Assembly (NCBI GenBank): GCA_947498505.1
Contig: CANMKG010000003.1
Span: 310,001 to 374,000, forward strand
Direction of reading: 5' to 3'
DNA: 64,000 nucleotides
Source of the DNA: an uncultured Maribacter sp.
GTDB lineage: Bacteria > Bacteroidota > Bacteroidia > Flavobacteriales > Flavobacteriaceae
Shown in pieces: positions 2 through 11,740 of the stretch. The notes beneath the pieces were generated by a model. That model had not been told where the DNA came from, did not search any database, and was given only the letters and a program-made list of their open reading frames with translations. Position 1 is the stretch's first letter; each line of letters starts with the position of its first letter. The position numbers and the translations under genes were made by a program.

Positions 2-577
2 GTGACCGAATCTGAAAAGGAACTTTCGGAAGGAATAACATTAAGCTCGTATTGCCAAAAAAGATATGATGGTATGAAATCTGAAATGCATCGAAGAGCT
101 TTTTTGAGCATAAGGCATTTACTTGCGCTGTTGGATTACGTAGATGCGGATTTGCATTATGATGAAAGTGGGAAACCTCATTTAAAAGATGGTAAGTATA
201 TTTCTATATCACATTCTTATAATTTCACAGGAATTATTGTTAGTGATACTATTGATGTTGGTATTGATATTGAGAAACAACGCGATAAAATTATGCGCAT
301 TGCGCATAAGTTTACGCAACTTGATGCATATGAAAATATTAAAATAGAAGAAGAACTAATACGAAAACTTACTGTTGTTTGGGGTTGTAAGGAGTCGCTT
401 TATAAAATATATGCACAAGAGGGTTTAAGTTTTTACAATCATATTTTTATAAATGATTTTATGATTTCAGATAATAAAACAACAGGCGAAATCCATTACA
501 ACGCTGATAAAACCTACTATAATATTAGTTTTATGGAGTTCGAAGGTTTTACATGTGTCTATGCACTAAAAAAATAA
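2..577 (+). CDS. 4'-phosphopantetheinyl transferase superfamily protein (5' end outside window)
   Basis: Transfers the phosphopantetheine arm of CoA onto a serine of carrier proteins. In the visible 191 residues the family hallmarks are VGIDIE (about 86-91) for metal binding and WGCKESLYK (127-135), preceded by the SISHS stretch (68-72). The GTG at base 2 is only the first in-frame start inside the window. Family members usually carry about 25 more N-terminal residues, so the true start is probably upstream. Its stop lies 3 bases before the next gene, so it heads the visible part of a tightly packed operon. Its substrate (fatty acid or secondary-metabolite carrier protein) cannot be told from sequence. 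Family call is firm. Confidence 0.88.
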   Translation: MTESEKELSEGITLSSYCQKRYDGMKSEMHRRAFLSIRHLLALLDYVDADLHYDESGKPHLKDGKYISISHSYNFTGIIVSDTIDVGIDIEKQRDKIMRIAHKFTQLDAYENIKIEEELIRKLTVVWGCKESLYKIYAQEGLSFYNHIFINDFMISDNKTTGEIHYNADKTYYNISFMEFEGFTCVYALKK

Positions 578-580
578 TTA

Positions 581-841
581 ATGAAAATATCGGTAGAGTT
601 AACGTTTTCTCCATTACAAAACGATTTTGAACAGCATATTATTAATTTTATTAAAAAAATAAGAGCATCAGAACTTACTGTTTTAGAAAATCCACTAAGT
701 ACTCAAGTTTATGGGGATTATGATGTTGTTATGCAATTGCTTTTTGTGGAAATTAAAGAGGCTTTTGTCTTGATGGATAAAGGATTGTTATTCATGAAAA
801 TAGTAAAATCTGACCTAAGCGATTATGAGCCACATTTTTGA
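581..841 (+). CDS. YkoF-like thiamine-binding protein
   Basis: A small 86-residue protein with no signal peptide. It resembles the thiamine/hydroxymethylpyrimidine-binding family (YkoF/MTH1187-like ferredoxin fold) that in Bacteroidota often sits beside PnuC-type transporters. The alternating beta/alpha pattern and the VYGDYDVVMQLL stretch in the middle fit that fold. It starts 3 bases after the preceding stop and overlaps the permease gene by 17 bases, so the two are probably translationally coupled. Inferred role: a cytoplasmic thiamine-binding partner of the transporter. The assignment rests on weak family resemblance plus context; an unrelated DUF77-type protein is possible. Confidence 0.65.
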   Translation: MKISVELTFSPLQNDFEQHIINFIKKIRASELTVLENPLSTQVYGDYDVVMQLLFVEIKEAFVLMDKGLLFMKIVKSDLSDYEPHF

Positions 842-1463
842 TTGGATTTTTTCGCAGTATCAAAATGTACCTACTCATCTCGTAGTTTTAGAGTTTGTAG
901 GTGTTTTTTTTGGCTTCCTAAGCGTATTATATTCTAAAAGAGAAAACATACTTGTTTTCCCGACTGGCATAATCAGTACTGCAATTTTTGTTTACATTTT
1001 GTTAGAATACGGACTGTTGGGTGATATGCTCATAAATGCATATTACTTTTCTATGAGTATTTATGGTTGGTATGTATGGACCAGAAAGGTAGATGAATCC
1101 CACTTTATTCCAATAACTAAAACAACTTCTAATGATAAAAAATGGAGTGTTTTAATGTTTATAGCTACTATACTGTTTGTGATTTTGGTTTATAGTTTGT
1201 TTAATAAGTTTGATGGCTGGACAGCTTATGTTGATACCTTTACAACGGCTATATTTTTTGTTGGAATGTGGTTAATGGCCAAAAAAAAGTTAGAAAACTG
1301 GACGTTTTGGATAATAGGTGATATAATTTCAGTACCACTATATTTGTATAAAGGATTGGTTTTTACGGCTATTCAGTATTTTTTATTTACAATTATTGCT
1401 ATCTACGGATATAAAGCATGGAAGAAAAATTTAAACAAGAGCCCTCAAACCTTGTTAAAGTAG
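825..1463 (+). CDS. pnuC: PnuC/PnuT-type vitamin permease
   Basis: Inner-membrane facilitator of the PnuC family, 212 residues with about seven hydrophobic segments. Family features are the early EFVGVFFGFLSVLYS segment, the INAYYFSMSIYGWYVW segment and aromatic-rich helices. PnuC proteins carry nicotinamide riboside, while the PnuT subgroup carries thiamine. The neighbouring thiamine-binding protein, and a TPP-riboswitch-controlled receptor 8 kb away, favour thiamine here. The NadR-type kinase just downstream would fit either substrate, since such kinases trap the imported vitamin by phosphorylation. The start overlaps the previous gene by 17 bases and the end overlaps the next by 46 bases. 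Family is secure; substrate is inferred. Confidence 0.85.
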   Translation: MSHIFDWIFSQYQNVPTHLVVLEFVGVFFGFLSVLYSKRENILVFPTGIISTAIFVYILLEYGLLGDMLINAYYFSMSIYGWYVWTRKVDESHFIPITKTTSNDKKWSVLMFIATILFVILVYSLFNKFDGWTAYVDTFTTAIFFVGMWLMAKKKLENWTFWIIGDIISVPLYLYKGLVFTAIQYFLFTIIAIYGYKAWKKNLNKSPQTLLK

Positions 1464-1981
1464 TTTTGTTTGGACCAGAATCTACTGGAAAAACAACGCT
1501 ATCACAGCAGTTGGCCAAATATTATAATACTGTTTGGGTACCAGAATATGCAAGAGAGTATCTGCAAAACAAGTGGAATAATGAACGTAAAACTTGTGAG
1601 CCTTCAGATTTATTACCCATAGCAGAAGGGCAAATAAAATTGGAGAATGCGCTAGCCAAAAAGGCTTCAAATATTTTAATTTGTGATACCGATTTACTAG
1701 AGACTAAAGTCTATTCTGAAGCATATTATTTGGGACATTGCGACACTACATTAGAAAAATATGCGTTAGAAAACACGTACGAGATGTATTTTCTTACGTA
1801 TGTTGATATTCCCTGGGAAGCAGATGATTTAAGGGATAAGCCTAATGAGCGAGAAAAAATGTTTTTATACTTTAAAGAAACGCTCGAAAAATATGATAGA
1901 AAATTTGTTATCTTGAAGGGTAATAAAAAAGAAAGATTAAATAAAGCAATAAGTTACATTGACCAATTATTAAAAAAATGA
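1418..1981 (+). CDS. NadR-type P-loop kinase (ribosylnicotinamide or thiamine kinase-like)
   Basis: 187-residue AAA-type ATPase matching the kinase half of NadR. Walker A GPESTGKT is at residues 19-26, followed by PEYAREYL (about 42-49) and a CDTDLLETKVY segment typical of the ribosylnicotinamide kinase domain. The adenylyltransferase and helix-turn-helix parts of enterobacterial NadR are absent. It starts inside the permease gene (46-base overlap) and its TGA overlaps the next ATG, so the three products are coupled. Likely role: phosphorylating the vitamin brought in by the permease, giving NMN if the substrate is nicotinamide riboside or a thiamine phosphate if it is thiamine. The gene context leans to thiamine. 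Confidence 0.78.
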   Translation: MEEKFKQEPSNLVKVVLFGPESTGKTTLSQQLAKYYNTVWVPEYAREYLQNKWNNERKTCEPSDLLPIAEGQIKLENALAKKASNILICDTDLLETKVYSEAYYLGHCDTTLEKYALENTYEMYFLTYVDIPWEADDLRDKPNEREKMFLYFKETLEKYDRKFVILKGNKKERLNKAISYIDQLLKK

Positions 1982-3516
1982 GCCAACTAACCGACAAAGA
2001 TTTAGAATACTTTGAAAAAAAAGGGATTGAAAAAAACAAGGTTCGAGGTCAAATACGAACTTTTAAGGAGGGCATTCCTTTTGTTAATCTTGAAAAAGCA
2101 GCTGTAATTGGTGATGGAATTTTAAAGTTTACTGAAGAGGAGGAAACACGATTAATAAAAAATTTCGAGAGACAAGCTTCTACTAAATCGCTTTTAAAAT
2201 TTGTGCCTGCTTCGGGTGCAGCTTCTAGAATGTTTAAAGCGCTTTTTAATTTTTTAGATTCCTATAATCCTGGAGAAGAAACTTTAGATGTTTACTTAAA
2301 CAGGACTAACGATAAAAATGTAAAGTTTTTTGCCGAAAACTTGGAAGAATTACCGTTTTATAAAATGGTATATGATAGAATTGCAGGGAAAGCTTTAAGT
2401 AAAGATGGTGAGGTGTTTTTATTTGTAAAAGAAATGCTTTTTGATACTGCCCTGAATTATGGTTTTTTTCCAAAAGGATTATTACCGTTTCATAACTATA
2501 ACGGAAAAATGGTAACCCCTTTTGAAGAACATTTGAAAGAAGGAGCCAAATACGCAAATCAAAACGGGAAAGCGGATATTCATTTTACCATATCGGAGCA
2601 ACACGAAGATATGTTTAAAAATGAGCTTCAGAGAATTAATAGCACGGTTTCCTTAGAAACAGGAACCAGTTTTACAGTTGATTATTCTTTTCAAAAACCA
2701 TCTACAGATACTATTGCTGTGGATATGAATAATAAGCCTTTTAGAAAGTCTGATGGAAGCATTCTTTTTAGACCCGGAGGGCATGGTGCATTAATTGAAA
2801 ACTTAAATGAACAAGATGCAGATATTATTTTTATTAAGAATATAGATAATGTAGTAGTATCAAAATATGCTGATGAAGTTGCTGATAGCAAAAAGATTTT
2901 AGCCGGAATTTTATTAGAAGTTCAAAAACAAACTTTTGAATATGCAGCATTAATAGAGAGTACGTCTATATCTGAAAAAACAACAGAAGAAATTAAGCAG
3001 TTTTTGGAGAAAAAACTTAACGCTAGATTTTTAGACAAGTTTGCAACGTATAGTTTAGAGGAAAAAATAAGAATTTTAAAAGATAAACTTAATAGGCCTA
3101 TTCGTGTATGTGGTATGGTTAAAAATGAAGGAGAACCCGGTGGAGGACCTTTTTGGGTAGAAGATAAACAAGGTCGCGTCTCTCTTCAAATAATTGAGTC
3201 CGCCCAAATAGATTTAAGTAATAAAAAACAAAAAGAAATTCTTCAAAACTCAACCCATTTTAATCCTGTTGATATAATTTGTGGAATCAAAAACTTCAAA
3301 GGAGAAAAATATAATGTTTTAAATTTTATTGATCCCAAACAAGGGTTTATTACTGAAAAAACCAAAGATGGAAAAGCGTTAAAAGCACTAGAACTTCCAG
3401 GACTTTGGAATGGGGCAATGGCTTTTTGGAATACCATTTTTGTGGAAGTCCCTCTAATAACTTTCAATCCTGTAAAAACGGTAAACGACCTTTTAAAACC
3501 TTCACACCAACAATAG
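1978..3516 (+). CDS. DUF4301 family protein, possible UDPGP-like nucleotidyltransferase
   Basis: 512-residue cytoplasmic protein of the uncharacterised family DUF4301. Three things suggest a GT-A nucleotidyltransferase fold. PASGAASRM (77-85) resembles the nucleotide-binding loop of sugar nucleotidyltransferases. RPGGHGALIENL (from about residue 265) resembles the PGGHG segment of UDP-glucose/UDP-HexNAc pyrophosphorylases. KNIDNVV (from about 287) resembles their NIDN metal/nucleotide site. A C-terminal part (about 375-512) is rich in Gly/Pro loops and may be a separate domain. Its ATG overlaps the kinase stop, so it is the last gene of the coupled vitamin operon and is followed by a terminator. 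The fold inference is mine from motifs; substrate and activity are unknown. Confidence 0.72.
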   Translation: MSQLTDKDLEYFEKKGIEKNKVRGQIRTFKEGIPFVNLEKAAVIGDGILKFTEEEETRLIKNFERQASTKSLLKFVPASGAASRMFKALFNFLDSYNPGEETLDVYLNRTNDKNVKFFAENLEELPFYKMVYDRIAGKALSKDGEVFLFVKEMLFDTALNYGFFPKGLLPFHNYNGKMVTPFEEHLKEGAKYANQNGKADIHFTISEQHEDMFKNELQRINSTVSLETGTSFTVDYSFQKPSTDTIAVDMNNKPFRKSDGSILFRPGGHGALIENLNEQDADIIFIKNIDNVVVSKYADEVADSKKILAGILLEVQKQTFEYAALIESTSISEKTTEEIKQFLEKKLNARFLDKFATYSLEEKIRILKDKLNRPIRVCGMVKNEGEPGGGPFWVEDKQGRVSLQIIESAQIDLSNKKQKEILQNSTHFNPVDIICGIKNFKGEKYNVLNFIDPKQGFITEKTKDGKALKALELPGLWNGAMAFWNTIFVEVPLITFNPVKTVNDLLKPSHQQ

Positions 3517-4543: not shown

Positions 4544-4580
4544 TTAGTAAGTCCATTATTTGTATCAAGTTAGTTTGTTT

Positions 4581-4607
4581 AGGGAAGCATTATGCTTCCC
4601 TTTTTTT
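4581..4607 (+). terminator. Rho-independent terminator after the PepSY-like gene
   Basis: AGGGAAGC/GCTTCCCT stem with an ATTAT loop followed by seven Ts, 38 bases after the stop codon. Confidence 0.85.
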
Positions 4608-4667
4608 ATTTTAAAACAGCTTTTTATCGATTTTTTGCGTAGATATTATACCCTGAATAAAATACCT

Positions 4668-6002
4668 ATGTCTAAAATCTTAATTATAGAAGATGATACT
4701 GCTTTTGCGCAAATGTTGCAGAAGTTTTTGCAAAAAAAAGAATTTCAAGTTTCTGTGTGTTATTCTGCAGACGAAACTAAATCTAGATTTAAAAATTTTG
4801 ATTTTGATTTAGTTCTTACAGATTTACGTCTTCCAGATTATGATGGAATATCCTTGTTAACAGAGATAAAAGCCATTTCTCCAAAAACTTCAATCATTGT
4901 AATGACCGGTTTTGCGGATGTTAGTACAGCAGTTAGAGCTATGAAATTAGGAGCTTCAGATTATATAGCAAAACCATTTCCTCCAGATCAAATTATAAGG
5001 GTTATTCAAAATGTGTTGCAAAATAGAAAAAAGAAATCTCAGGTTATAATCGAAAAAAGAGAAAGTCAAACAGGGCATTTTAATGAAGTAATTGGAAACA
5101 GTGAAGCATCACAAAAGTTAGAAAAGTATGTAAAGTTGGTTGCGCCGACAAATATGTCCGTTTTAATTATAGGAGAAAGTGGTACTGGTAAAGAAGTAAC
5201 CGCAAGAGCAATACATAATAATAGTAGCAGAAGGGATTTTGAATTTGTAGCGGTAGATTGCGGAGCAATTCCAAAGGAATTAGCTGCCAGTGAGTTTTTT
5301 GGACATGTAAAAGGGAGTTTCACAGGAGCAACAGAGCAAAAAGTAGGAAATTTTGAAGCAGCGCATAAAGGCACATTATTTTTAGATGAGGTTGGAAATT
5401 TATCTTATCAAAATCAAATACAATTGCTGAGAGCTTTACAAGAACGAAAAATAAAAAAAGTAGGAAGCACGCAAGAAATTGACGTAGATGTTAGAATTAT
5501 AACCGCAACAAACGAAAATTTAATAAAGGCAGTGGAGAATGGGGCGTTTCGTGAAGATTTGTTTCATAGATTAAATGAGTTTTCATTACAATTACCAACG
5601 CTTAAAGAACGAATAGATGATTTACCATTGTTTGCCAATTTCTTTTTAAAAAAGGCAAATGTTAGATTAAATAAAGAAGTACATAACTTTTCTGCCGAAG
5701 TGTGGAATGTTTTTAACGAATATCATTGGTCTGGAAATTTAAGAGAGTTGCAAAATGTAATTAATAGGGCAGTACTTTTAACCTCTGGAAATACGGTGCA
5801 GGTAGATACTGTTTCAATTGATTTAGAGAATAAATTAGTTGAAAATGTTCCAGAGCATTTTTCAAAAGCCCAATTCGAAAAAGAGCGTATAATAAGGGCA
5901 TTAAAACAGACAAATTATAATAAATCAAAGGCAGCGCAAATACTAAATGTAACTCGAAAAACACTTTATAATAGAATTAAACAGTATAACTTGAATTTGT
6001 AG
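4668..6002 (+). CDS. Sigma54-dependent response regulator (NtrC family)
   Basis: 444 residues in three parts: a receiver domain (1-120, phospho-acceptor Asp about 52 in LTDLRLPD), an AAA+ sigma54-interaction domain with Walker A GESGTGKE (about 169-176) and FLDEVGN, and a C-terminal Fis-type helix-turn-helix ending RKTLYNRIKQYNL. The sigma54-contact loop reads GSFTGA instead of GAFTGA. I chose the ATG at 4668 because MSKILIIEDD starts the receiver domain directly; the reading frame is open further upstream but runs through the preceding terminator. It converges on a hybrid kinase and overlaps it by 26 bases, so the pair is very likely a cognate system. Confidence 0.93.
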   Translation: MSKILIIEDDTAFAQMLQKFLQKKEFQVSVCYSADETKSRFKNFDFDLVLTDLRLPDYDGISLLTEIKAISPKTSIIVMTGFADVSTAVRAMKLGASDYIAKPFPPDQIIRVIQNVLQNRKKKSQVIIEKRESQTGHFNEVIGNSEASQKLEKYVKLVAPTNMSVLIIGESGTGKEVTARAIHNNSSRRDFEFVAVDCGAIPKELAASEFFGHVKGSFTGATEQKVGNFEAAHKGTLFLDEVGNLSYQNQIQLLRALQERKIKKVGSTQEIDVDVRIITATNENLIKAVENGAFREDLFHRLNEFSLQLPTLKERIDDLPLFANFFLKKANVRLNKEVHNFSAEVWNVFNEYHWSGNLRELQNVINRAVLLTSGNTVQVDTVSIDLENKLVENVPEHFSKAQFEKERIIRALKQTNYNKSKAAQILNVTRKTLYNRIKQYNLNL

Positions 6003-8388
6003 TTAGGTCTATAGCAATGGTATTGGTAAGTAATTTAATCTCATTTATTAAATTATCCATGTCTTTTTTTAAAGGTAGCTGATTTGTGATTTCCAGTTTT
6101 TCCAAAGATTCAATGATTAAACTTGAAACTTTTAGTTGTCTTAACATCGGAAGCATTCTGTGAGAAACCTCGTTAATTTTTGAAATTTTAGCTTGTTCAA
6201 AAGCTGTAGTCAATAGTCCAATGTTTTTTGATGTTTCGGTTATAAATGTGTTTAGAACTGAGTCAACATCTTTTTTGTCTAAAAAGGAATTTAAAATTTC
6301 TAAATCATATAGATTAGCGTCTATTTTTTTTGGATAATTTTTTTTCTTTTCGGCATTAATTTTAAAGTTTAGTTTAAGTAAGCACGTAACAAATTGTTGC
6401 TGTGTATAGGGTTTTAGCAAAACTCCCGAAAAACCTTTGTTAAGACAATCTCTAACATTAAAATTGTGGTTACCGGTCATTGCAATAATAGGTTGATTTT
6501 TGTAGTGCTCATAAACACCTGACTTTAGCATATGTAAAACATCAAAACCAGATAATTGTGGCATTTGTATATCGGTTAAAATTGCGTTATACTTCAACTG
6601 AGTATTTGTTTTTTCAATTTCTGAGAAGTTATTGCATAAAATGGGTTGTATACCAATATTTTTTACCATTTCTCCGAACATATTTAATAGCGATTTATCG
6701 TCATCAATAATCAAAATTTTAGATATTGGTTTTTGCCTTGTAACTTTTGTTTTAGCCGGAGTTATTGGTATTTCTATGGTAAATGAACTTCCGTGTCCAA
6801 CGCTACTTTTAACTGAAATTCGCCCGTTTAAAAGCCCCACCAGTTTTTTTGAAATAGCCAGCCCTAACCCATAACCTCCGTAATTTTGTTCCGTTTTATT
6901 ATTCGCTTGGGTAAATTCTTTGAAAACACTTTTTAGTTTTGTTTCAGGAATACCAATGCCTGTATCAATAATAGAAACGACTAATGAGTTTATTATTATT
7001 TTTGCCTCCACAGTTACACTTCCTTTTGGAGTGAATTTATATGCATTTCCAATTAGATTAGTTAAAATTTGTTTAAGCCTAAAAGAATCTCCGTGTACCA
7101 TTTTGTTAGCATTTTCAGCAATTGAAAGTGTTAGAGATACGTTTTTATTCGTAGATAATTTTGCAATGTTCTCTGCGGTTTCTTTTAGTAAATCGTATGG
7201 ATTAAAATCAATTTCATGAATAGTTAATTGACCGGATTTCAGTTTCGAAAAATCAAGCAAATCTGTGACTAAATTTTCCACGTATCCAGATTCAGATTTT
7301 ATATTATTTAGAAATTTATGTTGCTTTTCTGAGAGTGAAGTCTGTTCAAGAAGCTCAGTATAGCCTAAAATAGCATTTAATGGAGACCGCAAATCGTGAC
7401 TCACTGTATGTATGAGCTGTTCTCTACTCTTAAGAAGCGAATCTGAAAATTGTTTTTCTTTTTCTAATTTTTGCCTATATAGCTGTCCTTTCCAGAAATC
7501 TCTTATGATTAAAAAACTAAAAAAACCAACAATTAAGAATCCCACTATAGCTGTTAAACCAGCAAGTCGAATGCTTTTTTTTAGTACACTTTCCTTTAAA
7601 GAATTATTTTTTTTAACGTTGTCTAGACTTTCTTGTTCAAACGATTCAATTATATGTTGCAGTTGTTGCGAAAGCTCTAAGTCGTTTTGTGTAATTTCAA
7701 TTTCTTGTTTTAGGAGAGCATTTTCACTCGCAATATTTTTTTTCTTAACCTCGGTAAGCACTGATTTAGATTTTTGAAGAATTGAATCTATTTTTTCAGA
7801 ACTATTTATCAATGTGTCTTTGGGCACATTTGCATTTAGATAATCCGCCAACTTTATAATGGAGTTTTGTGCTTGTGGGGAAAGTTGATTAAAATTTGGA
7901 GCTAAAGCCTCAGCGGTTATTTTGCCCAGAGAAGCTTCAATTTTTTTAAACTTTTCAAGTGCAGTATTAATAGGGTTATTGGACTTGTTTTGGGCTTTTA
8001 TTTTTAAAAGTTGATTGTAGTTTTCTACTTTTTGAACTAGTAAAAATGAAGCACTGTCTAATAGTTTTTTTTGATGGAGATTTTCTGTTAGTTGTTTTAA
8101 GGTGTCTATTTCTAAGGTAACACTATCAATTTTTTTAGCATAGGTAACAAAATGCTTTTTCGTTTTTTTTTGTAGCGCTATTTTAGACAACCTTTCTGCC
8201 TCATATAATTGTGTTAAAAGAGAATTTGTTTTTAACAGTTTATTGTCTGTTGTATTAACAATACTAGATCCTATATAAGTGCTAATTTCAGAATACATAT
8301 AAAACCCTGAAATTAAAGCAAGAATAGCAAGAACTAAATAGCTTAGTATTATTTTAAGAGCAAACCTTTTTTTGGTTTTCTTTTTCAT
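5977..8388 (-). CDS. Hybrid sensor histidine kinase with receiver and Hpt domains
   Basis: 803-residue inner-membrane sensor. Order: TM1 (about 12-32), a long coiled-coil-rich periplasmic region (about 40-270), TM2 (about 275-297), HisKA with phospho-His in TVSHDLRSPLNAILGY, an HATPase domain with DTGIGIP and YGLGLAISK, a receiver domain with LTDIQMPQ, and a C-terminal helical segment with EVSHRMLPMLRQL that looks like a divergent Hpt domain. This is a full phosphorelay array that could pass phosphate to the convergently encoded sigma54 regulator. The genes overlap tail to tail by 26 bases. The Hpt call is the least certain part because the usual AHxLKG is altered. The signal sensed is unknown. 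Confidence 0.9.
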   Translation of the reverse strand: MKKKTKKRFALKIILSYLVLAILALISGFYMYSEISTYIGSSIVNTTDNKLLKTNSLLTQLYEAERLSKIALQKKTKKHFVTYAKKIDSVTLEIDTLKQLTENLHQKKLLDSASFLLVQKVENYNQLLKIKAQNKSNNPINTALEKFKKIEASLGKITAEALAPNFNQLSPQAQNSIIKLADYLNANVPKDTLINSSEKIDSILQKSKSVLTEVKKKNIASENALLKQEIEITQNDLELSQQLQHIIESFEQESLDNVKKNNSLKESVLKKSIRLAGLTAIVGFLIVGFFSFLIIRDFWKGQLYRQKLEKEKQFSDSLLKSREQLIHTVSHDLRSPLNAILGYTELLEQTSLSEKQHKFLNNIKSESGYVENLVTDLLDFSKLKSGQLTIHEIDFNPYDLLKETAENIAKLSTNKNVSLTLSIAENANKMVHGDSFRLKQILTNLIGNAYKFTPKGSVTVEAKIIINSLVVSIIDTGIGIPETKLKSVFKEFTQANNKTEQNYGGYGLGLAISKKLVGLLNGRISVKSSVGHGSSFTIEIPITPAKTKVTRQKPISKILIIDDDKSLLNMFGEMVKNIGIQPILCNNFSEIEKTNTQLKYNAILTDIQMPQLSGFDVLHMLKSGVYEHYKNQPIIAMTGNHNFNVRDCLNKGFSGVLLKPYTQQQFVTCLLKLNFKINAEKKKNYPKKIDANLYDLEILNSFLDKKDVDSVLNTFITETSKNIGLLTTAFEQAKISKINEVSHRMLPMLRQLKVSSLIIESLEKLEITNQLPLKKDMDNLINEIKLLTNTIAIDLTTNSSYTV

Positions 8389-8446: not shown

Positions 8447-9166
8447 TTAGCTATTAAAAGTATTTTTTAACATATCAGCAATAATTTTTTGCCCTACTGG
8501 ATTTGGGTGTATGGGATCTTTGTCATAAGCTTCTTCTTTTTTATTCCAAAGCGCTGTATGAATATCTACTTTGAGAATTGTATTTGCATGTTGAATATCT
8601 TCTATTACTTTTTTGAATGCTAAAATAACTTCGTCATTGTAATTAGGATAGGGTTTTTGCCATGTATATGGAGGCTTGTTATTTTTCTGAGAAAAAGCTA
8701 AAGGTGGTGGTGTTAGTAAAATAGCTTTAGCATTGAACTCGGAAAGTGAATCTAAAAAATGTGACACGCCTTTTTCATATAGGGCTAATTTTTCATCATT
8801 TAGAGGTTGATAAATACCGCAATTTACACCATAACAAAAGGTATAAATGTCTGCTTTGGTTTCCTGTAATACCTTTTGAAGTCTATTAAACAGATATGGT
8901 CTTGGAGTAGGGTGGCTATCTTCAGTTAATCCAGTTATGGTTTCACCACTTACTCCTAGGTTTACAAAAGTTAACTTTAATTCTGGGTATTTGGTATCAA
9001 AAAAGTTTTGTAATAGTTCAACATAACCGTTTTTCCCAGCAAAAGTTATACTGTCACCGAGGCAACCAATAACAGTTCCTTTTTTTAGTTTAAAATCGCA
9101 ATTGTATAAAAGACTTAGACTTATAGAGGCTAGAGTTGTCTTTTTAAGAAATTCTAATCTATTCAT
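8447..9166 (-). CDS. SGNH/GDSL hydrolase family protein
   Basis: 239 residues. SGNH blocks are visible: GDSIT (block I Ser), GVSGETI (block II), CYGVN (block III Asn) and DPIHPNPVGQ (block V Asp/His). The hydrophobic N-terminus (about 10-21) followed by Cys could be a signal peptide or an imperfect lipobox (LYNC has Asn at -1). Likely an esterase or lipase acting in the cell envelope; the substrate is unknown. Transcribed divergently from the riboswitch-controlled receptor. It stands 58 bases from the start of the hybrid kinase gene on the same strand, but no link to it is evident. Confidence 0.85.
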   Translation of the reverse strand: MNRLEFLKKTTLASISLSLLYNCDFKLKKGTVIGCLGDSITFAGKNGYVELLQNFFDTKYPELKLTFVNLGVSGETITGLTEDSHPTPRPYLFNRLQKVLQETKADIYTFCYGVNCGIYQPLNDEKLALYEKGVSHFLDSLSEFNAKAILLTPPPLAFSQKNNKPPYTWQKPYPNYNDEVILAFKKVIEDIQHANTILKVDIHTALWNKKEEAYDKDPIHPNPVGQKIIADMLKNTFNS

Positions 9167-9325: not shown

Positions 9326-9331
9326 CACCAT

Positions 9332-9414
9332 CTCAAAGGGGTGCTGCTGGTGATTATTATGTGGCTGAGATTATACCCAATGAACCTGAGCAGGTAATGC
9401 TGCTAAGGGATACG
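9332..9414 (+). ncRNA. TPP riboswitch (THI element)
   Basis: The conserved THI-box core is plain. AAAGGGGTGC is followed by a variable arm, then GGCTGAGATTATACCC (9363-9378), GAACCTGA (9382-9389), CAGGTAATGCTG (9391-9402) and AAGGGA (9405-9410). These are the pyrimidine- and pyrophosphate-sensing helices of the TPP aptamer. It lies in the leader of the TonB-dependent receptor about 100 bases before its start, with a hairpin over the start codon that may be the expression platform. TPP riboswitches upstream of outer-membrane receptors are known in Bacteroidota, where they control thiamine uptake. Confidence 0.93.
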
Positions 9415-9496
9415 TTGAACATTATATGGTATATTCCATAGGGTTTATAGTAAATCCAAAAAATCAAATATTAATTTTAGAATAATAGCCCCTTTT

Positions 9497-9519
9497 ATTC
9501 GTAATAAATTTTTACGAAT
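9497..9519 (+). promoter_or_regulatory. Start-codon hairpin, candidate riboswitch expression platform
   Basis: ATTCGTAA (9497-9504) and TTACGAAT (9512-9519) are perfect complements around a seven-base A/T-rich loop. The right arm includes the first two bases of the receptor ATG (9518-9520). Closing this hairpin would hide the start codon, as expected for translational control. No T-run follows, so it is not a terminator. Confidence 0.5.
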
Positions 9520-11740
9520 GAAATCGCTAAATTCATTTTTCAAAACATTGGCATTTTTATGCCTGACGGTGGGCGCAACAGCCCAAGAACAACAAACCGA
9601 TTCTTTAGAGGGAAAAAAGGTGGTACTCGATGAGGTATTTGTATCCGCTATAAGAGTAACTAAAGAATCACCTGTTACATTTTCAAATTTAACTAAGGAA
9701 GATTTACAATCAAGAAATTTAGGGCAAGACATTCCTATTTTAATGAACTTTTTGCCTTCAGTAGTAACTACATCAGATGCTGGCGCGGGAATTGGTTACA
9801 CAGGAATTAGAGTAAGAGGTAGTGATGCAACTAGGGTTAATGTTACAATTAATGGAATACCTTATAATGATCCAGAGTCTCATGGAACTTTTTGGGTTAA
9901 TATGCCTGATTTTTCTTCTTCTACCCAAAGTTTGCAGTTACAACGTGGTGTTGGTACTTCAACAAATGGAGCGGGAGCTTTTGGAGCCAGTTTAAATGTG
10001 TTAACGGATGGTTTTTCTGAGGAAGCATTTGGTCAAATATCTTCTTCAATAGGGAGCTTTAATACACTAAAGAATTCTGTAAAATTTAGTACAGGTTTAT
10101 TGAATGACCATGTGGAAATTGCAGGACGCTTATCAAGAATAACTTCTGATGGGTATATTGATAGGGCTTCCTCTGATTTAGATTCTTATTTTTTACAAGG
10201 AACATATAAAACGGATAAAACTTTAATTAAGGCACTTATTTTTGGAGGTCATGAAGTTACCTATCAAGCATGGTTTGGAACACCACTAGCTAGAATAAAT
10301 AACGATACTCAAGGTATTGAAGATTTTATTGTAGCAAACGGGTATACCGAAGCGCAAGCTGAAAATCTTAGAAATTCGGATAGAAGATATAACTTTTATA
10401 CCTATGAAAATGAAGAAGATAATTATAAGCAAAATCATGCGCAGTTATTGTGGAATCAAAAAGTTAGTAATAATTGGAATACCAATTTGGCTTTTCATTA
10501 CACCAGAGGTCGAGGTTATTTTGAGCAATTTAGGGAAGATGACGATTTTGCAACATATGGAATTACGCCATTAAATATAAATGGAGAAGATGTTAACTCC
10601 ACAGATATTATTAGAAGACGTTGGTTAGACAATCATTTTTATGGCACTACGTTTTCCGCGGATTATAAAAGTGATAAGCTAGATTTAATAGTTGGCGGAG
10701 CCTTAAATAAATATGAAGGAGGCCATTATGGTGAAGTAATATGGGCGAGAATTGCTAACAATTTGAATTATGGAGACCGCTATTATGATGATAACTCTGT
10801 AAAAACTGATTTTAGTTTTTATAGCAAAGCAAATGCAAAAATTAGTGAACAGTGGAGCATTTATGGAGATTTACAATTAAGAAACGTAGCTTATGAGGCT
10901 AATGGAGCTGACACTGGTATTGTTGACGATACCTTCACTTTTTTTAATCCAAAAGCGGGTATTACTTTTGATTTAAATAGGAATAACAATTTCTATCTTT
11001 CTTATGCTATTGCTAATAGAGAACCTAATAGAAACGATTACGAAAATGGAAGCCCTAAGCCAGAACGTTTGGGTGATTTAGAATTAGGATGGCGCTATGT
11101 ATCTCCAAAAGTACAGTTGAATACCAATGTGTATTATATGAAATACAAAGATCAGTTGGTGTTAACGGGTGAATTAAATGATGTAGGAGCACCTTTGCGT
11201 GCAAATGTTGGAGATAGCTATCGCTTGGGCTTGGAGGTTGATGCCAATATTTCCATTTGCGAACAATTTGCGTTTAGACCTAACTTAACGTTAAGCACAA
11301 ATAAAAACAAAGACTTCTTTTTTCAAAGAGATGGAGTATTACAAAACTTAGGAGATACCAATATTTCTTTTTCTCCAAACGTAATTGCAGGAGGAGCATT
11401 TGCTTATCTCCCAACAGATAATATTCAATTAGCAATATTAGGAAAATATGTGGGAGAGCAATATATGGGTAATATTGATGCTGAAAGTTCTAAACTAAAT
11501 AGTTATTCGCAGTTTGATTTTAATGTTCAGTATGAGATTAATATCAATACTTTCATAAAGAATATAGTGTTATCTGGTTTAGTGAATAATATTTTTAATT
11601 CGCTATACGAGTCAAATGGCTATTTTTTTACATTTGATGATACCTGGTCTAACCCTGGCACAACCACAACAATTGAAGGTGCCGGATATTATCCACAGGC
11701 GGGAACAAACTTTTTATTAGGAGCTACAATTACCTTTTAA
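9518..11740 (+). CDS. TonB-dependent outer-membrane receptor, probably for thiamine
   Basis: 740 residues with a signal peptide (about 1-22, ending GATAQ), a plug domain starting LDEVFVSAIRV with VRVRGSDATRVNVTINGIP-type segments, and a 22-strand barrel ending in an aromatic F (ITF). The N-terminal CarboxypepD_reg domain of many Bacteroidota receptors is absent, and there is no SusD partner, which fits a small-molecule rather than a glycan receptor. The TPP riboswitch in its leader makes thiamine or a thiamine precursor the likely ligand. Inner-membrane partners are plausibly the PnuC-type permease cluster at 0.6-3.5 kb. It is monocistronic and followed by a terminator. Confidence 0.92.
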   Translation: MKSLNSFFKTLAFLCLTVGATAQEQQTDSLEGKKVVLDEVFVSAIRVTKESPVTFSNLTKEDLQSRNLGQDIPILMNFLPSVVTTSDAGAGIGYTGIRVRGSDATRVNVTINGIPYNDPESHGTFWVNMPDFSSSTQSLQLQRGVGTSTNGAGAFGASLNVLTDGFSEEAFGQISSSIGSFNTLKNSVKFSTGLLNDHVEIAGRLSRITSDGYIDRASSDLDSYFLQGTYKTDKTLIKALIFGGHEVTYQAWFGTPLARINNDTQGIEDFIVANGYTEAQAENLRNSDRRYNFYTYENEEDNYKQNHAQLLWNQKVSNNWNTNLAFHYTRGRGYFEQFREDDDFATYGITPLNINGEDVNSTDIIRRRWLDNHFYGTTFSADYKSDKLDLIVGGALNKYEGGHYGEVIWARIANNLNYGDRYYDDNSVKTDFSFYSKANAKISEQWSIYGDLQLRNVAYEANGADTGIVDDTFTFFNPKAGITFDLNRNNNFYLSYAIANREPNRNDYENGSPKPERLGDLELGWRYVSPKVQLNTNVYYMKYKDQLVLTGELNDVGAPLRANVGDSYRLGLEVDANISICEQFAFRPNLTLSTNKNKDFFFQRDGVLQNLGDTNISFSPNVIAGGAFAYLPTDNIQLAILGKYVGEQYMGNIDAESSKLNSYSQFDFNVQYEININTFIKNIVLSGLVNNIFNSLYESNGYFFTFDDTWSNPGTTTTIEGAGYYPQAGTNFLLGATITF

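Follow-up and report, generated by a model that had tools for sequence, protein, structure and literature searches.

DUF4301, a family with a predicted UDP-sugar pyrophosphorylase-type fold, at a probable thiamine locus of Flavobacteriaceae

Uridine diphosphate (UDP)-sugar pyrophosphorylases of the UAP1/AGX and UGP types (PF01704) belong to a superfamily in which the nucleotide loop usually has a GG form and the lysine segment a PKG form, and they carry a C-terminal domain after the catalytic domain. Excerpts of one study (PMC3888555) place Thr140, Arg141, and Lys148 of AfUAP1 among the phosphate-coordinating residues, essential by mutagenesis, and model a Glu, an Asn, a Gly, and another Asn as the hexosamine recognition of Arabidopsis UAP. 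In Bacteroides, OMthi-pnuT-tnr3 thiamine transport operons have been described (excerpt of PMC5613172), and adenosine thiamine diphosphate (AThDP) is a known natural compound; according to the excerpted parts of PMC8615392, its synthesis has not yet been demonstrated in vitro and no gene is named for the thiamine diphosphate adenylyl transferase activity. Here, we analyze a 64,000-nucleotide stretch of an uncultured Maribacter sp. (contig CANMKG010000003.1, positions 310,001 to 374,000; hereafter the window), in which a gene of the domain-of-unknown-function family DUF4301 (PF14134) overlaps the gene of a NadR-like kinase. DUF4301 resembles the UDP-sugar pyrophosphorylases in predicted fold and conserved residues, and in Flavobacteriaceae it stands at a probable thiamine locus, recurrently fused to the kinase. 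In the open-access literature searched, DUF4301 was found named in a single paper, as a line in a table of rumen proteins, and PF14134 was not found mentioned.

Fold and putative active site of DUF4301

The match to PF14134 spans the whole window protein (730.6 bits, cut-off 27) and is the one DUF4301 match in its genome (G000). A first-pass annotation of the window had proposed a UDPGP-like nucleotidyltransferase from three motifs and had noted a four-base overlap with the kinase gene. On the translation, PASGAASRM starts at residue 77, RPGGHGALIENL at 265, and KNIDNVV at 287, just as it had placed them, and the overlap is real: the ATGA at 1978-1981 is common to the kinase stop (open reading frame end 1981) and the DUF4301 start. 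The gene and its putative site segments are:

1978..3516, + strand: DUF4301 protein (PF14134), UDPGP-type GT-A nucleotidyltransferase-like, 512 amino acids (Pfam E 1.4e-219)
2206..2232, + strand: nucleotide loop PASGAASRM, residues 77-85; R84 is the putative phosphate-binding Arg by motif order
2470..2478, + strand: PK(G/A) segment P165-K166-G167 with the likely phosphate-binding Lys; P165 and K166 invariant
2770..2787, + strand: RP(G/A/S)GHG, residues 265-270; weak side alignment with PPGHG of yeast UGP1 (2i5k)
2836..2850, + strand: KN(I/V)DN, residues 287-291, D290 being the putative counterpart of the metal-site Asp; weak side alignment with GDN of yeast UGP1
3196..3264, + strand: E407 to N429 (LQI.E.AQ, FNP), putative counterparts of the sugar-contact Glu and Asn in the main alignment with yeast UGP1
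3469..3495, + strand: PVKTVNDLL, residues 498-506, K500 invariant; lined up with PVKTCSDLL of yeast UGP1

We compared folds using hmmscan, phmmer alignments, and Foldseek. An AlphaFold2 model built from 57 sequences (mean predicted local distance difference test 91.4, predicted template modeling (TM) score 0.90) gave 525 Foldseek matches in the PDB at E ≤ 10 and 52 at E ≤ 0.001; the best 50 of the 525 are all UAP1/AGX or UGP structures, led by 1vm8 (E 2.7e-11, TM 0.53, ∼12% identity). The sole phmmer match in the PDB was yeast UDP-glucose pyrophosphorylase 2i5k, a weak one (E 0.76) aligning residues 403-506, and a profile of the 57 sequences recovered 2i5k again, no more strongly (E 0.83). Pfam UDPGP (PF01704) was matched at E ≤ 0.1 by 32 of the 57 sequences (best 1.1e-5); the window protein reached E 3.6e-4 and 19.8 bits, under the curated cut-off of 22 bits, over residues 402-507, a region outside the motifs of the first-pass annotation. 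Judged by sequence comparison, the PF01704 resemblance exceeds chance. Because phmmer, Pfam UDPGP, AlphaFold2, and Foldseek results converge, homology of DUF4301 to the UDP-sugar pyrophosphorylases at ∼12% identity is well supported, and the modeled UDPGP/UAP1-type (GT-A) fold can be predicted with high confidence. The fold and site proposed in the first pass, which had named structure prediction against UGP/UAP1 as a check, are thus supported by the Foldseek and PF01704 matches and by the conserved residues described below. UDPGP proteins are rare in the phylum (4 of 99 genomes over the cut-off); as a side observation, L177-L180 are rare Bacteroidota open frames of ∼1110-1130 amino acids with a partial UDPGP match over the cut-off.

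Conservation singles out the same segments. In 25 sequences, that of the window protein plus 24 DUF4301 sequences from beyond its family, 66 columns are invariant, including G80, R84, M85, P165, K166, Q239, R265, P266, G268-G270, K287, N288, D290, N291, G388, G389, E407, F428, N429, K500, and D504, and position 83 is Ser or Thr throughout. The motif residues, whose lack of conservation across DUF4301 the first pass had named as refuting, are kept in the 57 flavobacterial sequences aligned as well as in the 24 others, and the putative phosphate, metal, and PVK sites (S/T83, R84, K166, D290, and K500) are conserved across DUF4301. By motif order, S/T83, R84, and K166 would be counterparts of the AfUAP1 phosphate residues, and E407, N429, G388 or G389, and H269 those of the UAP hexosamine contacts, an equivalence to UAP1/UGP drawn from motif order and alignments rather than from superposed coordinates. 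The main yeast UGP1 alignment pairs the E407-N429 region with LLEVAQV and FNTNN; the GHG and DN segments pair with 2i5k in the side alignment alone (score -3.3, weak). We take the counterpart of D290 to act at the metal site and the counterpart of K500 to have the role of the PVK Lys.

Fold and site are the reason for proposing nucleotidyl transfer to a phosphate as the reaction class. DUF4301 would bind a nucleoside triphosphate via the loop around G80-R84 and K166, with a metal held by D290. A phosphorylated acceptor, positioned by E407, N429, H269, and K500, would then receive the nucleotidyl group, and pyrophosphate would be set free.

The flavobacterial locus and its thiamine context

The other features of the locus are:

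1418..1981, + strand: NadR-like P-loop kinase (AAA_28) with no adenylyltransferase part, proposed thiamine kinase (E 5.5e-43)
825..1463, + strand: PnuC-family permease, proposed PnuT for thiamine (PF04973 E 2.8e-54, 184 against 27.3 bits)
581..841, + strand: MTH1187/YkoF-type thiamine-binding-like protein (PF01910, Foldseek)
9327..9427, + strand: thiamine pyrophosphate (TPP)-riboswitch-like element, 5.8 kb downstream of DUF4301 (RF00059 43.5 bits, E 5e-7)
9518..11740, + strand: proposed receptor for thiamine, of the TonB-dependent type and encoded after the riboswitch-like element (PF00593 E 6.7e-21, PF07715 E 4.8e-10)
2..577, + strand: 4'-phosphopantetheinyl transferase, likely an unrelated neighbor; its open reading frame begins at the window edge (PF01648 E 4.5e-7)

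Of 296 genomes sampled across the phylum, 51 carry DUF4301; the window's family accounts for 27 of these, and 24 lie outside it (the family, coded f1, and the genus coded g2 were identified from named relatives as Flavobacteriaceae and Flavobacterium). Among 80 relatives, PnuC lies upstream in 75 by open reading frame calls and in L035 by tblastn, with L025 ending too early to judge, and the kinase is adjacent in 73; a second set of 25 family loci has the kinase in 22 and PnuC in 23, plus L098 and L103 by tblastn. The recurrent link of DUF4301 to PnuC and kinase genes, whose absence the first-pass annotation had named as refuting, therefore holds within the window's family, fusions included; it is missing from a few flavobacteria and from all 24 loci outside the family. 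These 24 have no DUF4301 neighbor common to all. Small groups outside the family do share neighbors: a CDF transporter at L123 and L127, and the three-gene group c13-c15 at L114-L116, all of one other family, where DUF4301 lies just behind or near these genes (5-oxoprolinase type by reading alone). At L141 (G289:C54:1491357-1492843), DUF4301 is interrupted by an in-frame stop and the adjacent kinase is also lacking.

The upstream genes are of the types recognized in the first pass. The kinase matches the kinase part alone of TIGR01526 (profile positions 164-320 of 325; 105 bits against a cut-off of 341), in agreement with a NadR-type kinase that lacks the adenylyltransferase, and six full-length NadR proteins of the phylum cover the entire profile at 165-235 bits, likewise under the cut-off. 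DUF4301 gave no CTP_transf_like adenylyltransferase match at E ≤ 1 in Pfam or NCBIfam. The PnuC-type permease was read correctly, as was the thiamine-binding-type protein, the latter scoring under the Pfam cut-off of PF01910 Thiamine_BP (19.8 against 24.9 bits). For this small protein, 52 of 52 sequences match PF01910 at E ≤ 0.1 (best 7.4e-9) and 41 match YkoF; Foldseek pairs its model with 2ibo (SP2199, TM 0.82) and 1vk8 (TM0486, TM 0.79), and TM0486 bears the title of a putative thiamine biosynthesis/salvage protein.

The window PnuC joins, in a tree of permeases, L168 and L169, permease loci that are linked to thiamine pyrophosphokinase and bear TPP riboswitches (support 96/96 in an unrooted tree with long branches). 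It stands apart from five of six permeases linked to full-length NadR; the sixth, L173, sits alone on a long branch. The kinase tree (L166 and L164 omitted for lack of the P-loop pattern, L025 as a fragment) left the substrate unsettled because the NadR rows lie on very long branches. In the open-access literature, a NadR-type thiamine kinase was not found described, and "NadR-like kinase" and "COG3172" were absent among the matches listed.

The riboswitch-like element of the window scores under the RF00059 gathering score of 54.3, and its alignment spans the model from end to end apart from a short deletion; an Rfam scan of the window at the gathering threshold reported nothing, this element included. 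It scores 66.8 bits with R1, a covariance model from seven TPP riboswitches that include the elements of the window, L039, and L064, which match by construction. Run against 81 sources, R1 matched 69 times: once in the window and 68 times across 67 of the 80 loci, always on the DUF4301 strand. In each of the 67, the nearest element is downstream of DUF4301, with a median distance of 488 bases to the end of the gene. Of the 13 loci that gave no match, five extend 3.1 kb or less on the downstream side (L003, L008, L015, L021, and L063). Between DUF4301 and the receptor, the window holds, by reading, a sigma-54-type response regulator (4560-6002, +), a hybrid sensor kinase (5977-8388, -), and an SGNH-type hydrolase (8447-9166, -); several loci that gave no riboswitch match also have open reading frames of similar size in this place, so that their flanks may end before the element. 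Run on whole genomes, the Rfam model places a TPP riboswitch at most 7 kb downstream of DUF4301, and in its orientation, in 25 of the 27 family genomes that carry the gene (not G057 and G103), the nearby elements scoring below the gathering score; stricter filters there lose weak riboswitch matches.

Genes behind the element fit a thiamine function. Homologues of the window receptor (at least 47.5% identity) occur downstream of DUF4301 in 61 of the 80 relatives, and 63 of the 67 element-bearing loci have a receptor homologue or thiC on their downstream side; in the remaining four (L004, L016, L024, and L042), the element is within 0.5 kb of the locus end. At L039, genes for ThiS, ThiC, a ThiE-like protein, and ThiD come after the riboswitch, as do those for ThiC and ThiD at L064 (with ThiE at L064:11830), and at L061 the receptor is followed by ThiC.

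Thiamine signs also accompany the kinase elsewhere, across several families. NadR-like kinases are found near TPP riboswitches in genomes without DUF4301, such as G064, G158, G080, and G138, at ∼110 bases in G064 (G064:C22:531439-531888) and G158 (G158:C32:121003-121455). In six of eight genomes of family f4, a PnuC-kinase pair and thiL are at most 9 kb apart and share a strand, a finding to be read with the caution that the full-length NadR locus of G190 is also 3.5 kb from thiL, on the opposite strand. The window's own genome has ThiL and no match to thiamine pyrophosphokinase (TIGR01378). TIGR01378 is missing from 35/35 genomes outside g2 with a PnuC-adjacent kinase-only neighbor and present in 14/14 of g2, a tally made by hand with G072 left out (unclear 498-amino-acid open frame); we count this pattern only as consistent because 147 of the 296 genomes lack TIGR01378. 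Absence calls from PF13521 are unreliable, at most 11 candidates having been scored per genome.

In Flavobacteriaceae, the reading of the DUF4301 locus as a thiamine locus is thus well supported, and the receptor at 9518-11740 is probably the thiamine receptor of its genome. Most likely the locus serves to take up and activate thiamine: the vitamin would enter through the TonB receptor and the PnuT-like permease, the NadR-like kinase would phosphorylate it to thiamine monophosphate, and ThiL would then make the cofactor. The NadR-like kinase may be the thiamine kinase of Bacteroidota that lack thiamine pyrophosphokinase.

The first-pass annotation had left the choice between nicotinamide mononucleotide (NMN) and thiamine. 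In the nicotinamide route, the kinase would phosphorylate nicotinamide riboside to NMN, and DUF4301 would adenylate this to NAD, taking the place of NMN adenylyltransferase with a GT-A enzyme. The NadR type of the kinase and the TIGR01528 score of the window PnuC (105 bits against a cut-off of 42) agree with such a route, and in family f8, the four genomes with a kinase-only PnuC neighbor have DUF4301, whereas the three in which PnuC adjoins full-length NadR lack it. The genomic context favors thiamine instead: the window permease falls among thiamine-linked ones, and there are TPP riboswitches and thi genes around the locus. G182 and G202 carry a separate PnuC beside full-length NadR, G190 holds both full-length NadR and DUF4301, and many kinase-only genomes are without DUF4301. 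The second PnuC genes (G182:C13:92000-101000 and G202:C32:19000-28000; L172 and L173) form a separate nicotinamide riboside route.

Kinase fusions and the acceptor of DUF4301

Across 106 loci examined, kinase and DUF4301 share a single open frame in 20 of 95 adjacent pairs, and control pairs are never fused (thiamine-binding-PnuC 0/66, PnuC-kinase 0/92, DUF4301-ArfB 0/31). Because PnuC sits in the membrane, DUF4301-ArfB is the fairest of these controls, though a small one. Mapped on a quick DUF4301 tree of 130 rows, fusion requires eight changes of state, and well supported branches force at least six of these gains or losses. In every fused protein (22 rows from 20 genomes), the P-loop, RP.GHG, KN.DN, and PVK motifs are intact. 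Since the fusion recurs, it suggests that DUF4301 works on a substrate or product of the kinase.

We tentatively propose that DUF4301 is a putative, catalytically complete UDPGP/UAP1-type nucleotidyltransferase with a thiamine phosphate as its acceptor. It would take the kinase product, or another thiamine phosphate, and yield a nucleotidyl-thiamine compound, of which AThDP is one possibility. The narrower idea that, with the fused thiamine kinase, DUF4301 makes a nucleotidyl-thiamine such as adenosine or uridine thiamine diphosphate is more speculative still. Of the steps we infer, catalysis and thiamine as the substrate of permease and kinase among them, the acceptor is the most conjectural.

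Several observations weigh against a thiamine acceptor. Adjacent kinase and permease are both missing at L020, L064, and L075, and there is no adjacent kinase at L067, L072, L077, and L081 (PnuC present), L107, L135, and L141. Conversely, the family genomes G029, G088, and G107 retain permease and kinase and lack DUF4301. None of the 24 loci outside the family has PnuC or the kinase in flanks of ∼8 kb, as far as the contigs reach, and the 22 of these 24 genomes that were searched show no TPP riboswitch up to 10 kb from DUF4301; other thiamine genes were not looked for there. Relatives' operons include genes of no thiamine role (phosphopantetheinyl transferase, GGGP synthase, and ArfB). In the permease tree, the window's group does not include the permeases linked to the kinase in families f3 and f5, which lie in another group again. 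The riboswitch lies behind DUF4301, not in front, and so gives no sign that DUF4301 itself is under riboswitch control. Finally, the counterparts of the UAP1 sugar-recognition residues are invariant and therefore speak for a sugar-phosphate acceptor.

DUF4301 could accordingly be a sugar-1-phosphate pyrophosphorylase, probably UTP-using, for some UDP-sugar, its place at the thiamine locus reflecting shared transcription and chance fusion and no common chemistry. All of the best 50 fold matches are UDP-sugar pyrophosphorylases, and the hexosamine-recognition counterparts E407, N429, H269, and G388/G389 are retained; the lack of nearby riboswitches in other families (0/22 genomes), the persistence of DUF4301 where kinase or permease is not adjacent, and the operon genes without thiamine role agree with this reading. 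Against it stand the recurrence of the fusion and its restriction, among the pairs examined, to the kinase pair, as well as the thiamine genes that remain beside DUF4301 at L064, which has no adjacent permease and kinase. We give the sugar-phosphate acceptor slightly more weight than the thiamine acceptor, still short of an even chance, because the absent outer riboswitches, the kinase-less loci, the DUF4301-less genomes, and the sugar contacts fit it as well or better.

A role chiefly in ligand sensing or as a scaffold for the kinase, with fold and site kept, is improbable for DUF4301. The fusions would suit such a role, as would the loop PASGAA[ST]R with its departure from the usual GG form, but 66 invariant columns in 25 sequences, catalytic counterparts included, are unlike a site without catalysis, and DUF4301 also occurs with no kinase nearby. 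NMN adenylation by DUF4301, dropped as the leading reading given the separate clade of five of the six NadR-linked permeases, the kinase-only f3 and f4 genomes examined that lack DUF4301, and the thiamine surroundings, is very unlikely.

Comparison with known systems

With a predicted fold, a likely active site, and a locus, a family of unknown function can be approached by a few defined assays. Should the acceptor prove to be a thiamine phosphate, DUF4301 would be the first gene for nucleotidyl-thiamines and a case of the UDP-sugar pyrophosphorylase fold used in vitamin metabolism. The NadR-like kinase is in turn a candidate thiamine kinase for Bacteroidota with a thiamine-type permease but without thiamine pyrophosphokinase.

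With UAP1/AGX and UGP, DUF4301 shares the predicted fold, the motif order, and putative equivalents of the Arg and Lys at the phosphate site and of the GHG, N.DN, Glu, FN, and PVK residues. It differs from them in its ∼12% identity to the best structural match, in a window protein below the PF01704 cut-off, and in a loop that reads ASGAA[ST]R where the GG form is usual. R84 and K166 are 82 residues apart, against 7 between Arg141 and Lys148 of AfUAP1; the ∼75 extra residues are mainly helical in the model, with helices within 103-154. The chain stops six residues past PVKTVNDLL, so the C-terminal domain that UGP and UAP1 carry after PVK is absent.

As in NadR, a NadR-type kinase is joined to a nucleotidyltransferase, as a separate or fused polypeptide. 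Unlike in NadR, the nucleotidyltransferase is of predicted GT-A rather than Rossmann-like NMN adenylyltransferase type, the kinase comes first (the reverse order), and the context is that of thiamine. Thiamine diphosphate adenylyl transferase, the activity associated with adenosine thiamine di- and triphosphate, would catalyze the same reaction class as DUF4301 if the acceptor of DUF4301 is a thiamine phosphate, and we know of no link made between that activity and DUF4301. As far as the excerpt of PMC5613172 describes the OMthi-pnuT-tnr3 operons of Bacteroides, the flavobacterial locus resembles them in its TPP-riboswitch-linked TonB receptor and PnuT-type permease and differs in that a NadR-like kinase and DUF4301 replace the tnr3 enzyme.

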